Source: Gammaproteobacteria bacterium (GTDB lineage: Bacteria; Pseudomonadota; Gammaproteobacteria; Steroidobacterales; Steroidobacteraceae). Taken from it: DNA of 64,000 nt. This document shows, piece by piece, positions 2-7,749 of this stretch (the first letter of the stretch is position 1; the number at the start of each line of letters is the position of its first letter). The translations under genes were made by a program, and so were the position numbers. The DNA is taken from positions 1-64,000 of the forward strand of contig VBMV01000056.1 in NCBI GenBank assembly GCA_005878835.1, read 5' to 3'. The notes below the pieces were generated by a model, which was given only the letters and a program-made list of their open reading frames with translations, did not search any database and was not told the origin of the DNA.

Positions 2-1246
2 GAGCGGGACCTGACGTTCAACGCGACGACCTACGGCGGAGTCTTTGTCCCCATAAACACGCTGCCGGCCTCAACGTTCGCCGGGGGCTTAACGCCGGGG
101 GACTACCTCAAGAACACCTCCAGCCCGGGCACTTTGACCAGCTATTGGCAGGTGAACACAGGTGCCGTGGAGCGCGTGCTCTTTGCTGAGCTTGAACACT
201 CGGGACGCGTGTTGTATCCGCAGCAGAGCTTCTCTGCACAGGAGAAGACCACGGGCGGCTTTGTCATGGGCAACTTCGAGGGCGATCACTGGCGCGGAAA
301 CCTCGGCCTGCGCATCGTTCGCACGGAGCAGACCACAAACGGTGCAGTCTTCGCCGGCGGACCCGGCTCGATCGATAATCCGTTCGGCCGCTTCATTCCG
401 ACCACCGCGGAGCGCAACTACACGGATACGCTGCCCTCCTTGAACCTGGCCTACGATGTGACGAAGGACGTCGTCGTGCGTTTTGCGGCGGCCAAAGTGA
501 TGGCGCGGCCTGACTACACCGACATCGTGCCGCGCACTACGCTCAACCCCGGCGCGCTGACAGGAGCGGCTGGCAACCCCGATCTCGACCCCTACCGTGC
601 GACCCAGGAAGACCTGGCGGTCGAGTGGTACCCGGACAGGGATACGGCGTTCACCCTGGCGCTCTACAACAAGGACATCAAGTCGTTCATCGTGGACGTG
701 CCGGTAGCCGGGAATTTTCCCATCCAATCGGCGACTCAGCCGAATGCGGCCTGCACGCCGACCAGCACTCCGAACCTGTTCAACTGTCCATTCACGATCA
801 ATAAGCGTGCCAACGGCGGCGGCGGCAAGGCTCGGGGCGCGGAGCTTGGATTCACCAAGCCGATCTGGGGTGGCTTCGGCTTGCAGGCAAACTATACCTA
901 CTCGGATTCGAAATTGGACAGCGGTGATCCGGTCCCGGGCGACTCGAAGAACACCTACAACGTGACGGGCTTCTTCGAGAATAAGCGCCTGAGTGCGCGC
1001 CTCGCGTACACCTACCGATCGGACTTCTTTGTCACCTTCGATCGCTCGACGCACCTCGACCAGTCCGCGCTGAAGTCGCTGGACGCATCGGTTGCGCTGA
1101 ACATTACCGACAATATCGCACTGACCTTCGACGGACTTAACTTGACAGATGACAAGATCGTGCAGTTCGCGGATAACCTCTCAAGACCGCGCGCGATCTA
1201 CGACAATGGTCGGGTGTATTACGCGGGCGCGAAGGCGAGGTTCTGA
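2..1246 (+). CDS. TonB-dependent receptor, C-terminal part (5' end outside window)
   Basis: The frame is open from base 2 to a TGA at 1244-1246, so the gene enters from the left and only about 414 C-terminal residues are visible. They form the beta-barrel end of an outer-membrane TonB-dependent receptor: alternating aromatic and charged strands, a typical 'ANYTYSDSKLDSGD' strand, a 'LNLTDDK' segment near the end, and a terminal Phe (AGAKARF) as expected for BAM-dependent barrels. The plug and TonB box lie outside the window. The substrate cannot be read from this part. The adjacent hexosaminidase-PTS operon makes an amino-sugar oligosaccharide a reasonable guess, which is inference from context. 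Family assignment is strong; substrate is unknown. Confidence 0.88.
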   Translation, partial: ERDLTFNATTYGGVFVPINTLPASTFAGGLTPGDYLKNTSSPGTLTSYWQVNTGAVERVLFAELEHSGRVLYPQQSFSAQEKTTGGFVMGNFEGDHWRGNLGLRIVRTEQTTNGAVFAGGPGSIDNPFGRFIPTTAERNYTDTLPSLNLAYDVTKDVVVRFAAAKVMARPDYTDIVPRTTLNPGALTGAAGNPDLDPYRATQEDLAVEWYPDRDTAFTLALYNKDIKSFIVDVPVAGNFPIQSATQPNAACTPTSTPNLFNCPFTINKRANGGGGKARGAELGFTKPIWGGFGLQANYTYSDSKLDSGDPVPGDSKNTYNVTGFFENKRLSARLAYTYRSDFFVTFDRSTHLDQSALKSLDASVALNITDNIALTFDGLNLTDDKIVQFADNLSRPRAIYDNGRVYYAGAKARF

Positions 1247-1287: not shown

Positions 1288-2988
1288 TCACCTGTAGCCG
1301 TACGCGGTCATGATTGGCGCGAGCCGAGGTACCAATGGCTTCAGAGCCTGCGTGTAGTGCACGTGGCGATTGATTGAGCGGTCGTTGAGCTTCTCGGTGA
1401 CCTGCGCGTAACTTGGCGTGGGCGCATAACGTGGATTCTCGTGAAAGCGCAGGCAGGCATCCTCGAACGGCAGGCCGAGATAGTCGAGGAGGCTCGCGGT
1501 CTGCCCATTCTGATCCTCGACGAGAGATTCATATCTGAGTACGAAGTCGTCCGGCGCGAGCTCGCGGCGATAGTGCTCGACCAGCTCAAACACGGCGGCG
1601 AGGTGATGCGCGATATCCTCGATGCGGTAGCCGCAGTTGAAGCCGTGCGTCATGTTGTTCGACATCATCGAGACGCACACATCCAATGGATGGCGCACCA
1701 CGTGGATGATCTTCGCCTCCGGAAATGCCATCTTCAGGAGGGGAAGATAGACTTCGTTGAACGGCATCTTGTCGGTGAAGAACGCCTTGCCGCTGTGCGC
1801 AAGCCCGTACTGCTCAGCGCGCGCGAGATAGTAGTCGCGAAACAAAGTCGCGGCGTAGCGGTGATCGGCCGTCCAGCTCTGCGCGAGATTTTCCGGAAAT
1901 GGTTCCGGCCCAGGGAACAGGTCCTTGGCGAGCTTGCGCAGCTCGCCAAGGAAGGGGAGCTCGCCGCCGGCCAGCACTGCCGGGTGGCTGCAGAGAATCT
2001 GTTCGACCAAAGTCGTGCCCGAGCGCGGAAAGCCCATGATGAAGATCGGTTGCGTCACATCGGTGCGCGGCTTGGCTCGGGGCAGAAGCTTGATGTTCTC
2101 CCGCGTGAAGAACCGCGCGAGCTGTCCGAAGAACCCGGCGACCGCGTCTGCCTTGTAGTCCAGTCCGCCGCCTTCCTGGGCCAGCTTGTGCTTGCCCTCC
2201 ACAAAGTCTTGCCAGGCTTGTTCATATCTGCCGAGGCGCTCATGCAAACGCCCGCGTGCCAGCTGCCCATCGCCTGCGAGGGTCACTGCGGCATCGAGAA
2301 TCGCGAGCGCCTCTGCATAGCGACCTGCGCGCGCCAGATAATTGCTCCGCAGGAGGTTAACCTCTGCGGCAGAGGAGAGCGCCTGTGCCCGATCGAGCAG
2401 GTTCTGCGCGCGCGCGAGGTCTCCGCGTACCTCATACAGGGTGGACCAGTAGGCGAGCGTCTTCATATCGCTCGGAGCCAGCTCGTGGGCATGAGCGAAG
2501 TAGTGGTCGGCAAGGTCCGTGCGGCCCTGTTTCAACAGGTTGAGGGCGAGGTTCATGAGAAATGGCGCCTGGGGGCCGGCGAGCTCCAACGCGCGGCGGA
2601 AGTGCCACTCCCCGGACGGCAAATCGTTGAGCTCCGAGAGCAGCAGGCCGAAGAGGTTGTGCGCCTGAGCGTTGTGGGGGTTGGCCCGCAGGGCTGCCCG
2701 CGCCACGTGTTCGGCATCCGCACGGCGCCCGTGCGTGAGCAGGAGTTGAGTCAGATCGTTGAAGGCCCAATCTGCCCGCGAATCGATGCCGATGACGGTT
2801 TGCAGCGTGTGCACGGCTTCGCCGATTTGGCCGCGTCGGCGCTGGACGATGGAGCGCAGCTCGAGCGCGGTCACGTCTCGTGCTGCGGTCTTGAGCCGCT
2901 CTTCGGCGGCCGCTTCAACGCCACTCAGGTCGCCGCGCTGCAGGGCCTCGCGGCCGCGAAGGATAAGGGGATGGGGCGCGGTTGCCAT
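1288..2988 (-). CDS. TPR-repeat sulfotransferase family protein
   Basis: The 566-residue product has two parts. Roughly residues 1-300 are tetratricopeptide repeats (regular 34-residue Ala/Leu helix pairs, for example 'NPHNAQAHNLFGLLLSEL'). The C-terminal half is a PAPS-dependent sulfotransferase with the 5'-phosphosulfate loop 'GFPRSGTTLVEQ' and the 3'-phosphate motif 'VRHPLDVCVSMM'. Family members move sulfate from PAPS to an acceptor hydroxyl; the acceptor here is unknown. I chose the ATG at 2986-2988 because a GAGG lies 9 bases upstream and the protein starts MATAPHPLILRGREAL; the open frame extends further upstream without family sequence. It faces the TonB receptor and is divergent from the hexosaminidase. 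TonB receptor/TPR-sulfotransferase pairs are common in Xanthomonadales-type genomes, from general knowledge. Confidence 0.88.
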   Translation of the reverse strand: MATAPHPLILRGREALQRGDLSGVEAAAEERLKTAARDVTALELRSIVQRRRGQIGEAVHTLQTVIGIDSRADWAFNDLTQLLLTHGRRADAEHVARAALRANPHNAQAHNLFGLLLSELNDLPSGEWHFRRALELAGPQAPFLMNLALNLLKQGRTDLADHYFAHAHELAPSDMKTLAYWSTLYEVRGDLARAQNLLDRAQALSSAAEVNLLRSNYLARAGRYAEALAILDAAVTLAGDGQLARGRLHERLGRYEQAWQDFVEGKHKLAQEGGGLDYKADAVAGFFGQLARFFTRENIKLLPRAKPRTDVTQPIFIMGFPRSGTTLVEQILCSHPAVLAGGELPFLGELRKLAKDLFPGPEPFPENLAQSWTADHRYAATLFRDYYLARAEQYGLAHSGKAFFTDKMPFNEVYLPLLKMAFPEAKIIHVVRHPLDVCVSMMSNNMTHGFNCGYRIEDIAHHLAAVFELVEHYRRELAPDDFVLRYESLVEDQNGQTASLLDYLGLPFEDACLRFHENPRYAPTPSYAQVTEKLNDRSINRHVHYTQALKPLVPRLAPIMTAYGYR

Positions 2989-3077
2989 GAAGCAAGCCTC
3001 GGGAGACGGATGCAGACTCAGCTGCTCATACCCGCTATGGTGCCCGCTTCCAGGCGGCTTGTTTAGGGCATTGCTTG

Positions 3078-5231
3078 ATGGCCGGCGCAGGACGGAAGTC
3101 ATTTGCCGCAGCGGCGGCGGCAATTGTGTTGCTGGGCATTGGCACGCCAGCAGGCTCGCGCGCGGCTGACCGCTTCAATTCAATCGCCGATGTCATCCCG
3201 GCACCTGCGCAGGTACTGCCCGGTCGCGGCGTTTTCGCGCTCCGCACCGGAACAAAAGTGTCAATCCCCCGAGATCCTCAAGCCGCGCGGATTGGGCGCT
3301 ATTTCGCTGCTCTGCTGTTGCAGACCCGCGGAACTGCGCTCGAGGTGGTGGAACGCACGGGCGCGAACCCGCCCGCGGGTGCGATCGTCTTCGCACTCGT
3401 TTCCCACCGTGCGAAGCCAGACGCGGGAGACGTGAGATCAGGTCCGGAGGGCTACAGACTCGACGTGTTACCGCAGCGAGTCGTCGTGTCAGCGGGCGAT
3501 CGGCGCGGCTTGTTCTACGGCGCCGTCACCCTGTGGCAGCTGTGCACCGCGAGCGCCCCCGTACACGGCAGCATCACGCTGCCCGCACTGCACATCGTCG
3601 ATGCGCCACGCTTTCGCTGGCGCGGCCTGATGCTGGACTCGGCGCGCCATTTTCAATCGCCCGCGTTCATCATGCGCTACATCGACTGGATGGCGCTGCA
3701 CAAGCTCAACGTGCTGGGCTGGCATCTGACCGATGACCAGGGCTGGCGGCTCGAGATCGGGAAGTATCCGCGCCTCACCAGCGTCGGCGCCTGGCGCGTG
3801 CCGGCGGGCCGCGCGGCAGCGCGCGACATCGATCCGGCCACCGCTCGGCCACGTCTGTATGGCGGCTTCTACACCCAGGACGACGTGCGCCGCATCGTCG
3901 CGCACGCGCAGGCGCGCAACGTCACCATCGTGCCGGAGATCGACATGCCCGGGCATGCGACCGCGGCCATCGTCGCCTATCCGCAGCTGGGTGCGACGAA
4001 TGAGCCGCCGCAGGCAGTGCCGGCTGACTGGGGCATCTACCCGAATCTCTTCAACGTGGAAGAATCCACCTTCGCTTTTCTCGAGGACGTGCTCGCCGAA
4101 GTGATGGGACTCTTTCCCGGGGAATATATCCACGTTGGGGGCGATGAGGCGGTGAAGGATCAATGGAAGGCGTCCGCGCGCGTGCAGGCGCGCATGCGCG
4201 AGCTGGGTGTGGCGAACGAGGAGGCACTGCAGGGCTACTTCACTCACCGAATGGGGGAGTACCTGCGGGCGCACGACCGGCGCCTCGTGGGTTGGGATGA
4301 GATCCTCGAGGGCGGCGTGCCGGCGGACGCAACCGTTATGTCCTGGCGCGGCGTGCAGGGCGCGATCGCCGCCGCCGCCGCCGGACACGACGCAGTGTTG
4401 TCCCCGGACCCGACGCTGTACCTGGATAGCCGCCAGGGCCGCTCGCCGAGCGAGCCGCCGGGCCGCGGCACGGTCGAGACGCTCGCCGACGTCTATCACT
4501 TCGACCCGCTGCCCGGACCCCTCGCGGCCGATGGGCGACACGTGCTCGGGCTGCAGGCGAATCTCTGGACCGAGCACGTGCGCACCGAAGAGCGCGCCGC
4601 CTACATGACCTGGCCGCGCGCGGCCGCCCTCGCCGAGATCGGCTGGTCCCCGCCCGCGCGCCTCGACTGGCCGGATTTTCTCGCCCGGCTGCCGGCGGAG
4701 TTCCGCCGCCTGAGTGGGCTCGGCGTGCACTACTCGGACGATGCGCTCGCGCCGCCTCACACCGTGGGGCCGCACGAGCGCCACATGAGCCAGGATTTGA
4801 AGACCTGCACCGACAAGCTGGTCCTGTCGCTCGAGGATGACGCGCCGATGGAGGGGGCGCGCGCCGTGTTCCTCATCGACATCATGAATCCCTGCTGGAT
4901 TCTGCCGGCCGCCGATCTGTCTCACGGGTCGACGCTGACCGCCGCGGTGGGGCAGGTGCCGTTCAACTTCCAGATCGGCAAGGACATCGAGGCCATCAAA
5001 CTCAATGCGCCGAACACGCCCGCCGGGGAGCTCGAGGTGCGTCTGGACGGCTGCCAGGGTGAGCCCGTCGCGGTGCTGCCACTCGCACCGGCGGCCGACA
5101 ACGACGCGGTGACGACGCTGCCGGCGGTGCCGCTGCCGGGCGCGGCCGGGCCGCACGACCTGTGCTTCCGCTTCACCCAGCGCACGCTCGATCCGCTATG
5201 GGCGCTCGACTGGGTGCAGCTCTTGCCATGA
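3078..5231 (+). CDS. Beta-N-acetylhexosaminidase, glycoside hydrolase family 20
   Basis: The 717-residue exported enzyme has a signal peptide (KSFAAAAAAIVLLGIG..., cut probably after SRAA), an N-terminal GH20b-like domain (about 40-165), the GH20 catalytic barrel (about 170-530) and a C-terminal extension of about 150 residues. The catalytic Asp-Glu pair is in 'IHVGGDEAVKDQWK'. 'FRWRGLMLDSARH' and 'HLTDDQGWRLEI' are also GH20 signatures. It removes terminal beta-linked GlcNAc or GalNAc from chitin fragments or glycans, probably in the periplasm. The ATG at 3078 was chosen; a TTG codon sits directly before it at 3075. Its TGA overlaps the next ATG (ATGA at 5228-5231), so it is translationally coupled to the PTS genes, which supports GlcNAc as the product taken up. 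Confidence 0.93.
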   Translation: MAGAGRKSFAAAAAAIVLLGIGTPAGSRAADRFNSIADVIPAPAQVLPGRGVFALRTGTKVSIPRDPQAARIGRYFAALLLQTRGTALEVVERTGANPPAGAIVFALVSHRAKPDAGDVRSGPEGYRLDVLPQRVVVSAGDRRGLFYGAVTLWQLCTASAPVHGSITLPALHIVDAPRFRWRGLMLDSARHFQSPAFIMRYIDWMALHKLNVLGWHLTDDQGWRLEIGKYPRLTSVGAWRVPAGRAAARDIDPATARPRLYGGFYTQDDVRRIVAHAQARNVTIVPEIDMPGHATAAIVAYPQLGATNEPPQAVPADWGIYPNLFNVEESTFAFLEDVLAEVMGLFPGEYIHVGGDEAVKDQWKASARVQARMRELGVANEEALQGYFTHRMGEYLRAHDRRLVGWDEILEGGVPADATVMSWRGVQGAIAAAAAGHDAVLSPDPTLYLDSRQGRSPSEPPGRGTVETLADVYHFDPLPGPLAADGRHVLGLQANLWTEHVRTEERAAYMTWPRAAALAEIGWSPPARLDWPDFLARLPAEFRRLSGLGVHYSDDALAPPHTVGPHERHMSQDLKTCTDKLVLSLEDDAPMEGARAVFLIDIMNPCWILPAADLSHGSTLTAAVGQVPFNFQIGKDIEAIKLNAPNTPAGELEVRLDGCQGEPVAVLPLAPAADNDAVTTLPAVPLPGAAGPHDLCFRFTQRTLDPLWALDWVQLLP

Positions 5232-5995
5232 CGCCGGTGCGCACCGTGAGGCTGCTCGCGCCGCTCGCCGGCTGGAGCACCCCTCTCGAGGAAGCGCCCG
5301 ATGAGGTGTTCGCCAGAGGCTTGCTCGGCGACGGACTGGCCATCGATCCGACCTCGGCCACGCTCTGCGCCCCCTGTGACGGGGAGCTGATCGTGATCGC
5401 CGCCGCGCGACACGCCGTGACGCTGCGCACTCCGCAGGGGTGCGAGGTGCTGCTGCATGTCGGCATCGATAGCGTGGAGCTCGGGGGGCAGGGGTTCGAG
5501 CTGCACGCGCAGCAGGGCGCGCGCGTTAGAGCGGGCGAGAGGCTCCTCAGCTTCGATCTGGATCTCCTCGCGCGGCGCGCCAGGAGCGTCCTCACCCCGG
5601 TGATCGTGACCGCCGACAGCGGCTTTCGGATTGTGCGCCGCAGCTCGGGCTGCGAGCTCGCGGTCGGGAACCTCCTCATGGAAGTCGCCTCGCAAGCGCA
5701 GGAGGTGTCCGCGCCGGCGGCGCCGGGCGATGCGACAACCGTGCGGCGCCTCAAGGTCGGCGTTGAGCACGGCATTTACACGCGGCCGGCGGCGCTGCTT
5801 GCGGACGCGGTGAGGAGTCTCGCCGCGGACGTGCGCATCGCGGCGCATGGACGCGAGGCCAATGCGCGCAGCATCGTGGCGCTGATGGCGCTCGGGGTCG
5901 AGCGCGGGGAGGAGATCGAGATCCGTGCCACCGGGCCCGACGCCACGGTCGCCGTGCAGGCGCTGGCGGCGCTGCTGTCGGGGACGCTGTCGTGA
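5228..5995 (+). CDS. PTS EIIA(Glc-type)-HPr fusion with His-to-Tyr change in the HPr domain
   Basis: The 255-residue cytoplasmic protein has an EIIA-Glc/Crr-type domain (about 1-150) and an HPr domain (about 170-255). The EIIA domain keeps both active-site histidines: His62 in 'ARHAVTL' and phospho-accepting His77 in 'LLHVGIDSVEL'. The HPr domain has 'HGIYTRPAA' where the family has GLHARPA, so the phospho-His position is Tyr184 (codon TAC, 5777-5779). The Ser46-like 'ARSIVALMALG' region is kept. Related fusions usually continue into an Enzyme I domain, which is absent: the stop overlaps the EIIC start (GTGA). EIIA must therefore be phosphorylated by HPr and EI encoded elsewhere, and the HPr domain here probably cannot relay phosphate. 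That is inference; a Crh-like regulatory role is possible. Confidence 0.88.
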   Translation: MTPVRTVRLLAPLAGWSTPLEEAPDEVFARGLLGDGLAIDPTSATLCAPCDGELIVIAAARHAVTLRTPQGCEVLLHVGIDSVELGGQGFELHAQQGARVRAGERLLSFDLDLLARRARSVLTPVIVTADSGFRIVRRSSGCELAVGNLLMEVASQAQEVSAPAAPGDATTVRRLKVGVEHGIYTRPAALLADAVRSLAADVRIAAHGREANARSIVALMALGVERGEEIEIRATGPDATVAVQALAALLSGTLS

Positions 5996-7749
5996 AGCTC
6001 GGGCTCGCGGGACTGCAGAAGGTGGGCGGCGCCCTGATGCTGCCCATCGCGGTGCTGCCGATCGCGGGCCTGCTGCTGCGCCTGGGGCAGCCCGACCTGC
6101 TCGATTCGGCCTCCGTGGCCGCGGCGGGCGAGGCCATCTTCTCGAATCTCGGCCTGTTGTTCGCGATCGGCGTGGCGGTGGGACTCGCGCGCGAGAATCA
6201 CGGTGCGGCGGGACTCGCGAGCGTGGTCGCCTATCTGGTGGCGACCAAGGGGGCGGAGGTACTGATCGCGGTGCCGTCGGCGGCGGTGGCCGATTTCAGC
6301 GGCCGCGCGCGCGAGCTGGCGGTCGCGGCGTACAAGGCGCACGAGCTCGCCAAGCTCAGTGTGCCGGCGGGCATCCTCTCGGGCCTGACCGCCGGAGCGC
6401 TCTACAACCGCCTCTACAACATCAGTCTGCCGAGTTACCTCGCCTTCTTCGGCGGGCGGCGGTTCGTGCCGATTGCGAGTGGCTTCGCGGGGCTGCTGCT
6501 GGCCGGCGCGTTCGGCACCCAGTGGCAGCACCTCGAGCAGGGGATGGATGCGCTCAGCCGCTCGGTGCTGCACGCCGGGCCGCTCGGCCTGTTCGCCTAC
6601 GGCGTGCTCAACCGCGTGCTGATCGTGACCGGGCTCCACCACATCATCAACAACATCGCCTGGTTCCTGCTCGGCGATTACCACGGCGTTACCGGCGATC
6701 TGAAGCGCTTCTTCGCCGGCGATCCGAGTGCCGGCGCGTTCATGTCGGGCTTCTTTCCGGTGATGATGTTTGGTCTGCCGGCCGCCTGTCTCGCCATGTA
6801 TCACAGCGCTGTCCCCGAGCGGCGCCGCGCGGTAGGAGGGCTGCTCGCCTCCATCGCGCTGACCTCGATCCTCACCGGCGTCACCGAGCCGATCGAGTTC
6901 ACCTTCATCTTCCTGGCGCCGGTGCTGTACGGGGTGCACGCGCTGCTCACCGGAGTCGCGTTCATCATCATGAACGCCCTGCACGTGAGACTCGGTTTCG
7001 GCTTCTCCGCCGGCCTGTTCGACTATGTGCTGAACTTCAGCCGCGCCACGCGGCCGTTGTGGCTGCTGCCGGTGGGCGCGCTGTACTTCGCGCTGTACTA
7101 CGGACTGTTCCGCCTGGTCATCGTCAGGTTGGATCTGAAGACCCCGGGGCGCGACGCCCTGGAGAGCACCGCGGCGGCGCCGCCGCCGCCGGCCGAGCGC
7201 GCGCGTGCCTGGATCGGCGCGCTCGGCGGCGCGGCCAACCTCGTGTCGGTAGACGCGTGCACGACGCGCCTGCGGTTGTTGGTTGCGAATCAGGCGGCGG
7301 TCGATGAGGGTGCGCTGAAGCGACTCGGCGTCCGCGGGCTCGTGCGACCGTCGGCCAACGCGTTGCAGGTGGTGGTCGGTGCCGTCGCCGATCAGATCGC
7401 CGGAGAGATCCGCAGCGCGTTGCAGTCCACGAGCTGCGCCGCAGTGCCCGAGGCCGTCGCGCCGGGCACGTCTGCGCGGGCCGCGCCGGCCGCGCAGACG
7501 CCCGCGCTGGTGGCCCCGGATGCAGAGGCGCTCCTGGCCGCGCTCGGCGGCCGCGCCAACGTGCACGCGGTGGAAACCGCAGCGAGTCGGCTGCGCGTGA
7601 GCGTGGGCGATGCCGCGCTCATCGACCGCGCCGCCATTCGTGGCCTCGGGCTGCGCGGCATCGCGACACCGGTCGCGGGCTGTGTGCACGTGATCGTGGG
7701 TCCTGCCGCGGAGGCAGCGTGTGCGGGGCTGAAGAGACTGCTGGGGTAG
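5992..7749 (+). CDS. PTS EIIC-EIIB permease, NagE-like, with a second degenerate EIIB domain
   Basis: The 585-residue inner-membrane protein starts at a GTG overlapping the upstream stop. Residues 1-385 are the EIIC channel of the glucose/GlcNAc family (for example 'VTGLHHIINNIAWFLLGD' and 'SILTGVTEPIEFTF'). An EIIB domain follows (about 405-475), with the phospho-Cys at residue 423 in 'SVDACTTRLRL'. After a Pro/Ala linker comes a second EIIB-like domain (about 510-585) in which 'VETAASRLRV' aligns with that motif and puts Ala530 at the Cys position, so it cannot carry phosphate. GlcNAc is the likely sugar, because the permease is co-transcribed with a GH20 hexosaminidase. nagA and nagB are not in the window; they could lie to the left. 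Confidence 0.9.
   Translation: MKLGLAGLQKVGGALMLPIAVLPIAGLLLRLGQPDLLDSASVAAAGEAIFSNLGLLFAIGVAVGLARENHGAAGLASVVAYLVATKGAEVLIAVPSAAVADFSGRARELAVAAYKAHELAKLSVPAGILSGLTAGALYNRLYNISLPSYLAFFGGRRFVPIASGFAGLLLAGAFGTQWQHLEQGMDALSRSVLHAGPLGLFAYGVLNRVLIVTGLHHIINNIAWFLLGDYHGVTGDLKRFFAGDPSAGAFMSGFFPVMMFGLPAACLAMYHSAVPERRRAVGGLLASIALTSILTGVTEPIEFTFIFLAPVLYGVHALLTGVAFIIMNALHVRLGFGFSAGLFDYVLNFSRATRPLWLLPVGALYFALYYGLFRLVIVRLDLKTPGRDALESTAAAPPPPAERARAWIGALGGAANLVSVDACTTRLRLLVANQAAVDEGALKRLGVRGLVRPSANALQVVVGAVADQIAGEIRSALQSTSCAAVPEAVAPGTSARAAPAAQTPALVAPDAEALLAALGGRANVHAVETAASRLRVSVGDAALIDRAAIRGLGLRGIATPVAGCVHVIVGPAAEAACAGLKRLLG

Follow-up and report, generated by a model that had tools for sequence, protein, structure and literature searches.

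How is a PTS permease supplied with phosphate if the fusion protein encoded next to it has no EI domain and carries a tyrosine in place of the phosphorylated histidine of HPr? This question is raised by a gene at positions 5228-5995 of the window, i.e., the stretch of 64,000 nucleotides (bases 1-64000 of the contig) that was analysed. The gene product is probably a reduced NagF, whose GlcNAc EIIA domain is charged in trans by the EI-HPr of a second PTS (locus B), while its own Tyr-HPr domain appears to be dead for phosphoryl transfer.

The EIIA-HPr protein and its HPr active site

The gene and its domains are as follows:
5228..5995, + strand: EI-less NagF-like protein with a putatively inactivated HPr, EIIA(Glc-type)-linker-HPr(Tyr184), 255 amino acids (ORF call, Pfam, related genes)
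5249..5671, + strand: EIIA domain, residues 8-148, both His62 and His77 kept (Pfam, alignment to E. coli EIIAGlc)
5744..5992, + strand: HPr domain, residues 173-255, with Tyr184, Thr185 and Ser215 (Pfam, alignment, model)

In Pfam searches, the 255-aa protein gave a PTS_EIIA_1 match for residues 8-130 (138.8 bits) and a PTS-HPr match for residues 173-250 (76.3 bits, cut-off 23). By the same searches the EIIA domain belongs to the Glc class only and not to the fructose class. Its residues His62 and His77, which are invariant in an alignment of 59 sequences, align with the two active-site histidines of E. coli EIIAGlc, presumably His75 and His90. A preliminary description of this DNA had stated that both histidines are kept, and the alignment affirmed it. 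An AlphaFold2 model of the protein, calculated with the 59-sequence alignment, was well folded (mean pLDDT 93.8, pTM 0.87). Foldseek assigned the EIIA part to EIIAGlc (3our_B, TMt 0.93) and the other part to HPr (3ihs_B, TMt 0.94), which is therefore an HPr domain by fold as well as by family score.

The HPr active site reads HGIYTRPAA (H181-G-I-Y184-T185-R-P-A-A). Tyr184, encoded by TAC at 5777-5779, takes the place of the phosphorylated His15, and Thr185 (5780-5782) that of the Ala next to it. Two details of the earlier description have to be corrected: the HPr domain proper does not start at 5768 but slightly upstream, near 5744, and the nearby histidine is residue 181 instead of 182. Its statement that EI is missing was confirmed. 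The frame stops with the TGA at 5993-5995, which overlaps the GTG start (5992) of the permease gene, and no EI follows the HPr domain.

Genes surrounding the fusion gene

The neighbouring genes on the same strand are:
134..1246, + strand: C-terminal part of a TonB-dependent receptor, frame open to the contig start (profile matches)
3075..5231, + strand: GH20 beta-N-acetylhexosaminidase, upstream of EIIA-HPr (Pfam)
5992..7749, + strand: GlcNAc-type EIIC-EIIB-EIIB' permease, NagE-like (TIGR01998, 611.4 bits, cut-off 553.2)

Since the EIIA-HPr gene is located between the GH20 hexosaminidase and the GlcNAc-type permease, the region (locus A) looks like a GlcNAc uptake locus, and an upstream GH20 gene fits a chitin/GlcNAc locus. 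As in the window, nusA is located close to the locus-A gene, on one contig with it, in several genomes of the genus, two of which (G184 and G156) were followed in detail. A hutU frame was also scored as hutU by its profile. Between the receptor and the hexosaminidase, a TPR-sulfotransferase gene (1288-3123) lies on the opposite strand.

The first EIIB domain of the permease contains the Cys (DACTTRLR). The second one (ETAASRLR, 7528-7626) lacks this phospho-Cys. A second EIIB-like motif was read by eye in 17 of 41 permease frames of the locus-A and locus-B types alike, none of which possesses the Cys (Ala instead, Thr in one frame). Judging by these motifs, a PTS domain without its site, namely the second EIIB, is widely kept.

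Distribution of the tyrosine and of EI loss

Related genes were detected in 38 of 58 genomes of the genus and in 67 of 200 genomes of the family. As judged by frame length, they normally encode EIIA-HPr-EI. Closed EI-less EIIA-HPr frames were found only in the window's genome (G000) and in the two sister MAGs G184 and G156, all of which have Tyr encoded within an identical TAC ACG. Compared with the two other copies, the window gene shows synonymous differences at approximately 36 and 26 sites. An alignment of 43 relatives (39 best matches and four genes of the second locus) has His at the site throughout and Ala right after it. In further loci the site was readable in 31 of 34 fetched cases, all of them His, so that Tyr occurs in three of 77 scored HPr domains and His in the other 74. 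Two genomes (G187 and G163), both of which retain EI, were left unscored because unread letters cover the HPr site. It had been suggested to determine by alignment whether Tyr is clade-wide; it is not, since every other member of the genus and family that was scored carries His, and among the genomes scored Tyr is restricted to the three.

A label 'no EI' obtained by motif for eleven frames turned out to be a motif miss. Nine of these frames comprise 661-949 aa and were taken as EI-bearing by length; of the remaining two, that of G136 ends before HPr and the match of G022 is due to a separate 145-aa frame. The short frames of G033, G157 and G211 are cut by contig ends and were likewise rejected as EI-less relatives. 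G194 possesses a closed frame of 730 aa, shorter than usual, with His. A search of the order (396 genomes, 79 with a match) listed no further EI-less frame of similar length beyond those named, and in the class (369 genomes, 229 with a match) most of the matches listed span the HPr part only.

The closest relatives by sequence (G160, G195 and G196) gave one match each, an EIIA-HPr-EI, with the frames of G160 and G196 cut by contig ends within EI. In the EI-bearing genes of G195 and G203 the stop of EI overlaps the permease start just as the stop of HPr does in the window. Thus, EI looks cleanly removed from the window gene.

A general class of Tyr-HPr proteins was rejected. The pattern [HQ]-G-x-Y-[TA]-[RS]-P-A-A retrieved 87 stretches from 84,980 species, a collection to which the window's genome possibly does not belong, and since it demands His or Gln before Gly and an exact P-A-A, other convergent cases may be missed. 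Only two stretches, both from the sister MAGs, scored as HPr with more than 100 bits. The other 85 comprise 78 that were scored by profile (nine reached 8.9-15.5 bits, none of them HPr by eye) and seven that were read by eye, again without any HPr.

A second PTS as the probable source of phosphate

The preliminary description had reasoned that phosphate must reach EIIA from outside. This reasoning is supported, and a probable source is a second PTS of G000, locus B, composed of EIIA-HPr-EI and an EIICBB permease (contig C153, L005:8401-13042). Its HPr site is GLHARPAA and includes the phospho-His. The permease, tested in the window's genome alone, is of the glucose type (TIGR02002, 638.8 bits, cut-off 591.8; NF008301, 670.7 bits, cut-off 647). 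G000 contains two EIICBB permeases and two HPr domains, that of locus B and the Tyr domain of the window. It also harbors two PEP-utilizer C-domains, one belonging to the locus-B EI and the other one to a PEP synthase (1017.1 bits, cut-off 598), which the EI model scored with 123 bits, under its cut-off of 341.7. The locus-B EI is the only one found in G000, and neither a separate NPr nor an EI-Ntr was seen among these domains, which is unusual for a gammaproteobacterium. Since G000 is a MAG of 95% completeness in 186 contigs, a further HPr or EI might have escaped the assembly.

With two HPr domains, a single EI at locus B and permeases of GlcNAc and glucose types, the simplest phosphate chain runs via locus B: phosphate would pass from PEP to the locus-B EI, the locus-B HPr, the window EIIA, the window EIIB and finally to GlcNAc. 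In this chain the window EIIA would be phosphorylated in trans and then hand its phosphate on, as usual, to that EIIB of the GlcNAc permease which contains the Cys. Most likely, the gene descends from one for a complete EIIA-HPr-EI protein that fed the adjacent permease by itself. In a lineage that also bore another EIIA-HPr-EI, along with a permease belonging to it, a clean deletion would have removed EI and, before or after this event, Tyr would have replaced the phospho-His of HPr. The Tyr-HPr would take no phosphate. Its continued folding might be explained by a recent date of the loss or by a contribution of the domain to EIIA folding or docking.

Within the genus (58 genomes), matches of the second-locus type were obtained in five, G000, G156, G184, G192 and G199. 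G184 and G156 also carry a His-bearing EIIA-HPr-EI at this locus. The contigs of G192 and G199 break off within the first locus, before EIIA-HPr is reached, which leaves these two genomes unscored. The co-occurrence of locus B with the EI-less Tyr gene therefore rests on three genomes with one origin. Furthermore, three genomes of a sister genus (G105, G114 and G140) have both kinds of loci and, by frame length, both EI domains, indicating that EI may be retained even where a second system is present.

Selection on the locus and exchange of the EIIA-HPr gene

Among the three Tyr genomes, omega was 0.10-0.15 for EIIA and 0.10-0.20 for the EIIC part of the permease. Three (31, 82 and 94) of 57 conserved EIIA columns were lost. 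The purifying selection on EIIA and EIIC indicates that the pathway is probably in use, and it excludes a pseudogene decay of EIIA and the permease.

In a nusA tree, G000, G156, G192 and G199 form one clade (100/100), with G184 nearby at a position that the tree leaves unresolved. Between G000 and G184, dS of EIIA-HPr is 0.19 (EIIA 0.26, HPr 0.11), compared to 0.49-0.57 for GH20, permease, hutH, hutI, rimP and nusA and to 0.41-0.57 for two locus-B genes. Five of these dS contrasts were tested by Fisher's test and gave p values from 6e-7 to 3e-10. At the DNA level, determined in 150-base windows, identity of the two genomes amounts to 89-95% over 5250-6150 and drops to 82-89% along the 900 bases of the permease gene that follow, although this change is less sharp than that of dS, with two GH20 windows at 90.7% and 92.7%. 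The EIIA-HPr gene of G156 showed no comparable dip of dS relative to permease, hutH or locus B. A slow synonymous rate of the EIIA-HPr gene would be another reading of its low dS. As dS is low in this gene alone, the data suggest an exchange of the tract between lineages, which best explains the dip: the EI-less Tyr allele may have moved by recombination and most likely has one origin. Conservation as proof of a long-standing function is weakened in consequence, since much of the likeness would stem from recent exchange. The GH20 gene exhibited a dS of 0.41 between G000 and G156, where the other genes of this region gave 0.06-0.14, suggesting a recombination mosaic.

Possible roles of the Tyr-HPr domain

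The HPr part of the preferred explanation comes in two versions. According to the first one, the domain is a plain relic that became useless after the deletion of EI and whose decay is yet to come. Its dS among the Tyr genomes is low (0.09-0.11), which left little time to decay, and omega of the whole domain (0.16-0.44) is mostly above that of the active locus-B HPr (0.06-0.19). On the other hand, HPr is more conserved than the adjacent linker, which looks neutral (approximately 7 synonymous versus 17 nonsynonymous changes, p 0.52), and the allele has apparently spread by recombination instead of being lost. We regard a relic as a serious possibility that falls somewhat short of an even chance.

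In the second version the domain is a docking or braking module, which binds surfaces of EI or EIIA without taking phosphate. It would tether the GlcNAc EIIA to the EI-HPr of the second system or compete with the active HPr, and in this way set glucose against GlcNAc use. Besides the good model of its fold, the domain retained 19 of the 21 HPr columns in which 80% or more of the 43 relatives agree. The two lost columns are His184 and Ala185. HPr also reveals a synonymous excess, with approximately 10 synonymous versus 8 nonsynonymous changes (p 0.015 in a one-sided test of neutrality) and, within residues 198-250, a part picked after seeing the data, 6 versus 1 (p 0.0024). These counts are small and were estimated, as for the linker, by halving the values summed over all pairs of the three sequences. 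The ratio of HPr to EIIA divergence (1.12-1.14) lies within the range of 39 relatives (0.92-1.27), and the domain has thus evolved no faster than active HPr. A precedent for the retention of additional PTS domains is FruA of E. coli, both IIB domains of which are needed for full activity according to the consulted part of the source (PMC2405797). This substitution pattern favours some constraint, which however may reflect folding alone, and the raised omega argues against docking. We therefore entertain this role only tentatively. A more far-reaching proposal, that the dead HPr is a selected pseudo-carrier which docks on the glucose EI-HPr and wires GlcNAc to glucose uptake, the allele having spread because this coupling pays, seems unlikely to us.

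The domain had also been proposed to be a Crh-like regulator, phosphorylated by HPr kinase at Ser215. Crh is a known HPr relative without phospho-His, it was among the sequence and fold matches of the Tyr-HPr, and Ser215 does occupy the Ser46 position of HPr, as noted before. Ser is nevertheless nothing special at this position, since all of the 43 His-type relatives have it, and it is uninformative about the window protein. Moreover, HPr kinase was not found in G000 with the models PF07475 and TIGR00679. This negative result is soft, because the models matched just three of 14 control genomes and missed B. subtilis, which has HPr kinase. Altogether, a Crh-like function is very unlikely. That Tyr184 or His181 itself carries the phosphate is highly improbable: we know of no Tyr carrier in the PTS, and His181, though conserved (seen in 36 of the 43 relatives, with Gln in the other seven), is so in proteins with a normal phospho-His and hence is not a replacement. 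An artefact of sequencing or assembly, conceivable for a MAG, can practically be dismissed, as three assemblies differing elsewhere in the gene agree in the Tyr and Thr codons, which bears out the reported His to Tyr change, and in a clean EI-less frame.

Comparison with known systems

Among the open-licence papers searched, mostly by titles and abstract openings, an HPr with Tyr for His was not found, nor was the inactivation of HPr by Tyr in a GlcNAc fusion. The nearest known system is NagF, which the consulted part of PMC3222305 describes as the EI-HPr-EIIA of the GlcNAc PTS of Ralstonia eutropha, acting with NagE. Relatives of the window gene share IIA, HPr and EI with it, and a GlcNAc-type EIIBC permease adjoins in either case. 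The window protein itself has the IIAGlc domain with both histidines and the adjacent NagE permease, but differs from NagF in lacking EI and in having Tyr184 instead of the phospho-His (three of three members); its permease contains the extra Cys-less EIIB.

FPr differs from the window protein, an IIA-HPr without EI as well, in two respects. Its IIA is of the fructose class, while that of the window protein is of the IIAGlc class, and its HPr is active, whereas HPr is the inactivated domain in the window protein. Enterobacterial FPr (FruB, IIA-M-HPr) lost EI and kept a decayed IIA remnant (M) inside, according to the consulted part of PMC2405797, next to a permease (FruA) with duplicated IIB. 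The likeness thus extends to an EI-less fusion, a retained decayed domain and the permease beside it, and these precedents make EI loss and domain decay known kinds of change. Crh of Bacillus resembles the window HPr in its fold and in the Ser at position 46; it is a protein of its own that is subject to HPr kinase (PMC9631020, consulted part), whereas the window HPr, which also has no phospho-His, is fused to EIIA in a genome in which the two models found no HPr kinase.

The window gene provides a natural variant of the HPr active site inside a fusion, which allows one to ask what the HPr surface does without phosphate. In addition, it places within one genus the transition of a fused PTS from self-sufficiency to dependence on EI and HPr of another system; in the case of enterobacterial FPr, according to the consulted part of PMC2405797, a transition of this kind has been reconstructed between families.
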